Of a DNA stretch of 41,267 bases, positions 15,401 to 32,554 are shown one piece after another; the stretch's first letter is position 1, and every line of letters starts with the position of its first letter. A program made the translations under genes and the position numbers. The notes below the pieces were generated by a model. It saw only the letters and a list, made by a program, of their open reading frames with translations, ran no database searches and was not told the DNA's origin. The DNA is from Candidatus Aenigmatarchaeota archaeon (GTDB lineage: Archaea; Aenigmatarchaeota; Aenigmatarchaeia; QMZP01; JAFGSV01): NCBI GenBank assembly GCA_021163005.1, contig JAGGXP010000016.1:1-41267 (forward strand), given 5' to 3'.

Positions 15401-15423
15401 AGCTATCAATGCCCCCGGGGGGA

Positions 15424-15502
15424 TACTCAGCATCTTTTCATTTTTGCGTTAGCGTACTTTCCGGTGCGCGCTTTTCCATGTATGCTTATGGAAAAGGGTG
15501 CC
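15424..15502 (-). other. tRNA-Arg intron 2 (79 nt, T-loop 59/60)
   Basis: The junction has central helix TTCA/TGAG (one T-G pair), 5' bulge AAG (cut AA^G), 3' bulge TAT (cut TA^T), outer helix the T stem, and inner helix GCA/TGC. Removing it restores T loop TTCAAAT. Inside is a 9-bp hairpin CTTTTCCAT/ATGGAAAAG followed by a block (15475-15458) identical over 18 nt to the D-loop intron of tRNA-Gln at 32451-32434. The 5' end is also shared over 13 nt. Confidence 0.88.
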
Positions 15503-15524
15503 TTTGAACCCTCGATCTTCGGCT

Positions 15525-15575
15525 GTCTTCTCTCATAGTTCGCCACAGGCAAACTCGAATCTTCTAGTGCGAGAC
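15525..15575 (-). other. tRNA-Arg intron 1 (51 nt, canonical 37/38 site)
   Basis: The bulge-helix-bulge junction is textbook. The central 4-bp helix is CTTC/GAAG, the 5' bulge TAG (cut TA^G) and the 3' bulge ACA (cut AC^A). The outer helix is GGC/GCC of the anticodon stem and the inner helix is TCTC/GAGA. Inside the intron, GTTTGCC and GGCGAAC form a 7-bp hairpin. An alternative 8-bp hairpin, CTTCTAGT/ACTAGAAG at 15581-15561, would instead hide the anticodon and the 5' cut site. Confidence 0.9.
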
Positions 15576-15637
15576 TAGAAGGCCGACGCCTTATCCAAAC
15601 TAGGCTACGGGGGCCTGTTGTTGATTAATAAGCTTCT

Positions 15638-32234: not shown

Positions 32235-32247
32235 AGCCCTGGGCGGA

Positions 32248-32321
32248 TTTTCTGAACCAATGTTCGCGGGAGCTTACTTTCCGTGAAGGCTTTGGCACGC
32301 TTGCCTGTGCCAAAGGGTTCA
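32248..32321 (-). other. tRNA-Gln intron 3 (74 nt, T-loop 59/60)
   Basis: Outer helix is the T stem GGCGG/CCGCC and central helix TTCG/AGAA (three pairs plus G-A). Both bulges are AAT (cut AA^T) and the inner helix is GAACC/GGTTC. A TTTGGCAC/GTGCCAAA hairpin follows, then CACGGAAAGTAAGCT, which aligns with CACCGGAAAGTACGCT of tRNA-Arg intron 2 at the same site. Confidence 0.88.
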
Positions 32322-32342
32322 TTCGAACCGCCGCCGCCGGTT

Positions 32343-32389
32343 TTCTTCGCTGTCATCGCCCGAAGGCATCAACTCTTCGGAGCAGCGCT
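32343..32389 (-). other. tRNA-Gln intron 2 (47 nt, canonical 37/38 site)
   Basis: Central helix CTTT/GAAG (one T-G), 5' bulge GGA (cut GG^A), 3' bulge AAA (cut AA^A), outer helix the anticodon stem CCGGT/ACCGG, and a short inner GC/GC. The intron body has a GCC-TTCG-GGC hairpin. It does not share the sequence block of the D-loop and T-loop introns. Confidence 0.85.
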
Positions 32390-32412
32390 CCAAAGACCGG
32401 CATCCTTGGCCA

Positions 32413-32516
32413 TTTTCCCGCCCCTTTCTGTTTTTTCCGGTGCGCGCTTTTGCCCCGGTTTCCGCCTGAGCGGAGACAAGGGAACTTGTTCCCGCCACTC
32501 GGTCAGAAAAGGGTGC
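32413..32516 (-). other. tRNA-Gln intron 1 (104 nt, D-loop)
   Basis: The junction has outer helix GTC/GGC, central helix GTCT/GGAA (one G-A mismatch, one T-G), 5' bulge AGG (cut AG^G) and 3' bulge AAT (cut AA^T). The inner helix CACCCTTTTCTG/CAGAAAGGGGCG pairs 11 of 12 positions. The intron contains a GGGAAC/GTTCCC hairpin. Its 5' end (13 nt) and block 32451-32434 (18 nt) are identical to parts of tRNA-Arg intron 2, which sits in a T loop. Confidence 0.85.
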
Positions 32517-32554
32517 CTAGACGACAGGGCTGTTGATAAATAGAATGCATCCGG

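Follow-up and report, generated by a model that had tools for sequence, protein, structure and literature searches.

Shared sequence in tRNA introns of an Aenigmatarchaeota genome as a probable copy of a short, dispersed fold-back element of archaea

The window, the whole 41,267-nt stretch of Aenigmatarchaeota DNA analysed here, holds two disrupted tRNA genes on its minus strand, neither of which was called by ARAGORN or Rfam. The genes and their relevant parts are as follows.

15410-15614, minus strand: tRNA-Arg(UCU) gene with a 37/38 intron and a T-loop intron; acceptor GCCCCCG/CGGGGGC; ARAGORN call after removal of the T-loop intron
15424-15502, minus strand: tRNA-Arg T-loop intron, read as an element copy; 79 nt, ends placed by BHB to within about 1 nt on either side
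15458-15475, minus strand: conserved core AAAAGCGCGCACCGGAAA, identical at 32434-32451
15491-15503, minus strand: 5' end block AGGCACCCTTTTC, identical at 32506-32518
32235-32530, minus strand: tRNA-Gln gene (UUG by reading) with D-loop, 37/38 and T-loop introns; from reading of the sequence
32413-32516, minus strand: tRNA-Gln D-loop intron, read as an element copy; 13-mer and 18-mer as in the tRNA-Arg intron
32248-32321, minus strand: tRNA-Gln T-loop intron, read as a diverged subfamily of the element by its 87.5% identity to a tRNA-Thr T-loop intron (G000:C4, L030)

A first-pass annotation of this DNA had reported that the second intron of tRNA-Arg and the first of tRNA-Gln share a 13-nt and an 18-nt block, and this proved exact: each block has exactly two exact occurrences in the window, both on the minus strand, and within the window only these two introns have them in common. 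Similarly, the identity given for tRNA-Arg was borne out, as taking out the T-loop intron lets ARAGORN call a tRNA-Arg(UCU) whose anticodon intron is 51 nt long. For tRNA-Gln the agreement is partial, because ARAGORN sees a tRNA after excision of the D- and T-loop introns but misplaces the third intron and so reads the wrong anticodon. The T-loop intron of this gene, described earlier as a diverged copy of the same sequence, does belong to the family, but to another subfamily, close to the tRNA-Thr T-loop intron. Genes for leucyl-, lysyl- and alanyl-tRNA synthetases (9485-31446) lie near both disrupted tRNAs.

The splice points of the D- and T-loop introns are BHB placements, good to about 1 nt on either side and looser for the tRNA-Gln introns (three of four H pairs). 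At the tRNA-Arg T-loop intron the predicted motif is GAGGG-TTCA-AA|G-GCACC...AAAGATGC-TGAG-TA|T-CCCCC, with 4/4 pairs in H and 4/5 in each of h' and h, and at the tRNA-Gln T-loop intron h' reads GAACC/GGUUC and H has three of four pairs. A D-loop intron homologous to that of tRNA-Gln is present in a congener (G107, L266), where it gives a BHB of GUCU/GGAC with bulges AGG and AAC. The suggestion that BHB pairing is kept through the flanking exons needs amendment: the pairing is kept, but the exon alone is insufficient, and the 3' end of the intron brings four nucleotides that pair with exon.

Copies elsewhere were detected by patterns rather than by a covariance model, and diverged copies are therefore under-counted; reading of the source genome itself covered targeted stretches. 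In the source genome (G000; 945 kb, 91% complete), the 16-base core has 18 matches at two or fewer mismatches, one of which (L015) looks like a chance match inside coding sequence; the reversed-pattern control has none. The loose pattern CCTTTT-N6-30-AAARCG matches 50 times in G000 against 16 for its control, and about a third of these matches may be due to chance, while a structural pattern with CGGAAA gives 31 matches and its control none. Across the phylum, 59 of 156 genomes contain the structural pattern, and the control total is one match. Within the genus it is patchy, with seven copies in G106, nine in G107 and none in G108, against 31 in G000. The last of these congeners, G108, is twice the usual size, has 70 tRNAs, many of them in one cluster, and is possibly a mixed bin. 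In a search of 85k genomes, all but three of the first 113 stretches listed were archaeal, and in the three bacterial matches the paired stem is missing; the lineages that bear the pattern include Aenigmatarchaeota, Micrarchaeota, Diapherotrites, Methanophagales, Methanosarcinales and Thermoplasmata. Viral contigs gave one match in 2.9 million.

The first-pass annotation had proposed one family of tRNA introns, and would have taken further copies confined to tRNA D and T loops as support for transposition. Copying across different tRNA genes and across the two loop types, D and T, stands, but the restriction to tRNAs does not. Copies also lie within 16S, 23S and RNase P RNA models, in intergenic DNA, in tandem arrays beside tRNAs and in a protein gene, and so many non-tRNA contexts for the core, which the annotation itself had named as a refuting outcome, argue against a tRNA intron that transposes. 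One gene has a copy after its stop codon in both G000 and G107, and the two copies are of different subtypes. Elsewhere, an IS200/IS605 TnpA (Y1) gene contains two, perhaps three, in-frame copies (L113:3840-3980 and L152:7590-7740). The evidence fits better with a dispersed element, copies of which become BHB introns on landing in RNA genes.

The consensus of this element is NNNC-C-CTTTT-loop-AAAAG-C-GNNN-R-CGGAAAA, with a 4-bp covarying stem. Among the 172 copies with standard spacing, 143 have a fully complementary stem, of 17 types, against a mean of 19.0 and a maximum of 34 in 10,000 shuffles, values that are not strict probabilities since the copies are related. When the tetramer before CCTTTT is set against the GNNN after AAAAGC, positions 1-4 are paired in 166, 158, 167 and 159 copies (shuffled: 166, 127, 92 and 45) and position 5 is unpaired, which leaves exactly four covarying pairs. 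The extraction regex fixes the core and the first letter of GNNN and leaves the flank and the other inner letters free, so at the remaining three positions the covariation is free of circularity. Furthermore, in two gapless alignments 100% and 97.5% of the cells are paired, with 23 and 13 two-sided changes against 5.8 and 3.4 after shuffling, whereas slid alignments pair just 38-66% of cells. Rfam, including a search of the window at E<=1, gave no match to the element; its matches were to host tRNA, rRNA, RNase P and group II only. A related unit, TAAGCCTTTTCTGGCC...CTTAAGGG, is found in tandem or repeated form beside tRNAs at L011, L054 and L059, with the base beside the C.C mismatch swapped on both sides. 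At L016 and L017, one element is nested in another within T-loop introns.

Excision of 64 of 187 copies restores an ARAGORN tRNA across the junction, and excision at random-position controls in the same loci restores none. These 64 include copies from Thermoplasmata, Methanosarcinales, Methanocellales, Micrarchaeota, Diapherotrites, Woesearchaeota, Pacearchaeota and Altiarchaeota. A strict BHB (4-bp helix, two 3-nt bulges) is found at 23 of the 64 junctions, against a mean of 7.6 and a maximum of 13 for shifted junctions; the 41 that fail this test would have relaxed motifs or wrongly chosen junctions. By eye, the most compact example is the T loop of tRNA-Leu in G106 (GCAGG-UUCG-AA|C-CCUUUUCCG...CGGAAAAGG-CGGA-AA|U-CCUGC), and the G000 intron at the 16S site GGATTAGAT|ACCCCCG gives H UUAG/CUAA, bulges AUU and AAA, and h GGGG/CCCC. 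In-silico excision at this 16S site yields GGATTAGATACCCCCG, which is the empty congener sequence. Two PF01974 genes for the splicing endonuclease EndA (open frames of 188 and 434 aa) are present in G000, and the copies in RNA genes are predicted, from their sequences, to be BHB introns.

Sites that are filled within the genus are empty in particular congeners: the tRNA-Ser and tRNA-Val T loops in G106, and 16S GGATTAGAT|ACCCCCG and 16S GCACG..AAGTGT in G107. Most insertions, among 183 copies checked, have no target-site duplication. Direct repeats of 13-40 nt flank 15 of the 183 (shuffled, 0-2); some of these are tandem arrays, and often the repeat consists of a tRNA end in two copies, so that an intact tRNA remains. 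At L022, L026, L058 and L261, the leader and tRNA 5' end are duplicated around D-loop copies, and an intact tRNA 5' end lies downstream. Near-identical introns also sit in unrelated tRNAs: the T-loop introns of tRNA-Arg and tRNA-Asp (G000:C14) are 90% identical over their first 60 nt, against 55% for the exon parts compared, and those of tRNA-Gln and tRNA-Thr are 93% identical, against 64%. We infer that copies have moved at the level of DNA.

The analysis establishes a family with a defined structure, distribution and empty and filled sites, and with BHBs at the level of sequence. The sequence shared by the two tRNA genes is very probably a copy of a dispersed archaeal element that is short (about 45-100 nt) and folds back on itself, and whose copies in RNA genes form BHB introns. 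The 5' arm, (N)NNCCCTTTT, pairs with the internal AAAAG-C-GNNN to form a near hairpin, in which a C.C mismatch is conserved. When a copy lies in an RNA gene, this arm can alternatively pair near the 3' end of the element as a far helix and, together with four exon-complementary nucleotides, give the BHB. In the proposed mechanism, copies would move as DNA, and those that land in genes for tRNA, rRNA or RNase P RNA would survive because EndA removes them. The likeliest mover, and the most uncertain step, would be an enzyme acting in trans, a nuclease or recombinase, with the folded arm as its recognition target, and conversion between conserved T-loop exons may provide a second route inside tRNAs. 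Against this reading, G000 has no match to a reverse transcriptase or a Y1 TnpA and none to TnpB above the cut-off, most insertions lack a target-site duplication, and 41 of the 64 tRNA junctions miss the strict BHB. More tentatively, and as something quite possible but short of probable, we propose a widespread and previously undescribed class of archaeal mobile element that turns itself into BHB introns, with the near hairpin serving movement and the far helix splicing, and that would be, in DPANN and several lineages of euryarchaea, a main source of the non-canonical introns of tRNAs and rRNAs.

What else might account for these copies? An IS200/IS605-type (MITE-like) element, moved by a Y1 transposase with the 4-nt stem as its guide:target pair, is unlikely, although it would fit the hairpin, the 4-nt complementarity of flank and element, and the lack of target-site duplication at most sites. 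It would also fit the 16S site GGGGTAAAA|CCC, where the paired AAA is apparently exon-derived, as judged by known 16S sequence rather than by an empty site, and a weak co-occurrence of PF01797 (Y1 transposase) with the element (p=0.04, phylogeny-uncorrected). However, G000, G106 and G107, all incomplete genomes, have many copies and no PF01797 match, and of 12 TnpA-bearing loci scanned for element ends, just one has a copy nearby. At the 16S GGATTAGAT site, moreover, the empty target lacks the paired TGAC, which is thus element-borne there. A guide:target role for the stem was set aside on account of the tetramer missing at this one site, and the stem is treated as part of the element.

Gene conversion only, in which introns would spread by homologous recombination through conserved exon (the T loop GGTTCRAATCC) and with no mobile element, is less likely again. 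T-loop introns do form the largest near-identical set in G000, with a flanking exon motif in common. The lack of a reverse transcriptase or TnpA in G000 also favours this view, and T-loop copies alone could have spread in this way. For the family as a whole it is already refuted, as the core stands at sites with no shared exon (D loops, anticodon loops, 16S, 23S, RNase P RNA, intergenic DNA and coding sequence).

About equally improbable is that a LAGLIDADG homing endonuclease moves the copies, or that the intron, probably circular once excised, inserts by reverse splicing. A free-standing LAGLIDADG gene (PF14528, 2e-10) does lie directly between two element-bearing tRNAs in G000 (C19:33752-34288; L051:1615-2154), and LAGLIDADG genes co-occur weakly with the element across genomes (p=0.02, phylogeny-uncorrected). 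However, G107 has nine copies with no homologue detected, many homologue-bearing genomes lack the element, and the intergenic and coding copies are not homing sites; reverse splicing would require reverse transcription, and no reverse transcriptase was seen in G000. Finally, a conserved small RNA or regulatory structure that is not mobile would suit a covarying stem kept across phyla and the uniform intergenic copies of Methanophagales, but is made very improbable by lineage-specific insertions in conserved RNA genes, by tandem and nested copies and by in-frame copies in a protein gene.

The mobile fold-back element preferred here can be set beside several known systems. Rickettsia palindromic elements and MITE-like repeats are short, palindromic and dispersed, and occur in frame in protein genes and in RNA genes. 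The present copies share these features, a likeness in form, but are archaeal and form BHB introns in RNA genes. IS200/IS605 and REP elements have a hairpin with 4-nt complementarity and no target-site duplication, as is the case here at most sites; in contrast, no Y1 transposase was found in the host genome, and at one tested site the element itself carries the paired tetramer. In archaea, transposition of tRNA introns is known in Thermoproteales (Fujishima et al., 2010, as relayed in PMC4090602 and cited in PMC3293823), where, as those accounts are read here, the transposed introns are confined to tRNA genes. BHB splice sites and near-identical introns in unrelated tRNAs (here Arg/Asp and Gln/Thr) are common to both, whereas the present introns belong to other lineages, share an internal core that is fixed and a 4-bp stem that covaries, and have relatives in 16S, 23S, RNase P RNA, intergenic and coding DNA. 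Gain of an intron in Caldiarchaeum tRNA-Thr through a mobile element has also been proposed (Sugahara et al., 2012, PMC3293823). Intron gain with a duplicated 5' tRNA fragment is alike, but that element is 1.8 kb long and carries a recombinase, whereas those described here are tens of nucleotides long, lack any gene and have many copies. No description of the element was found within the literature searched; it appears to be a far broader variant of known tRNA intron transposition, and there is a fair chance that it represents a new element class.

A defined sequence and structure signature, filled and empty sites in one genus and copies outside tRNAs make intron gain countable, and offer a direct, testable view of how archaeal tRNAs acquire introns. 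There is also a practical consequence, in that element insertions cause standard tools to miss most tRNAs in genomes of this kind: the Rfam model sees 30 in G106 but eight in G107 and seven in G000. Missed tRNAs distort completeness estimates and codon-usage inference. Among the minor observations, a copy in a Methanophagales RNase P RNA gene (L169:6673-6702) shares its 8-kb stretch with a group II intron domain, and a second dispersed repeat, about TCTGCATGCACAGGATGAACAAAGCAGA, lies near many tRNA genes (L006, L009, L016, L026, L027 and L058).
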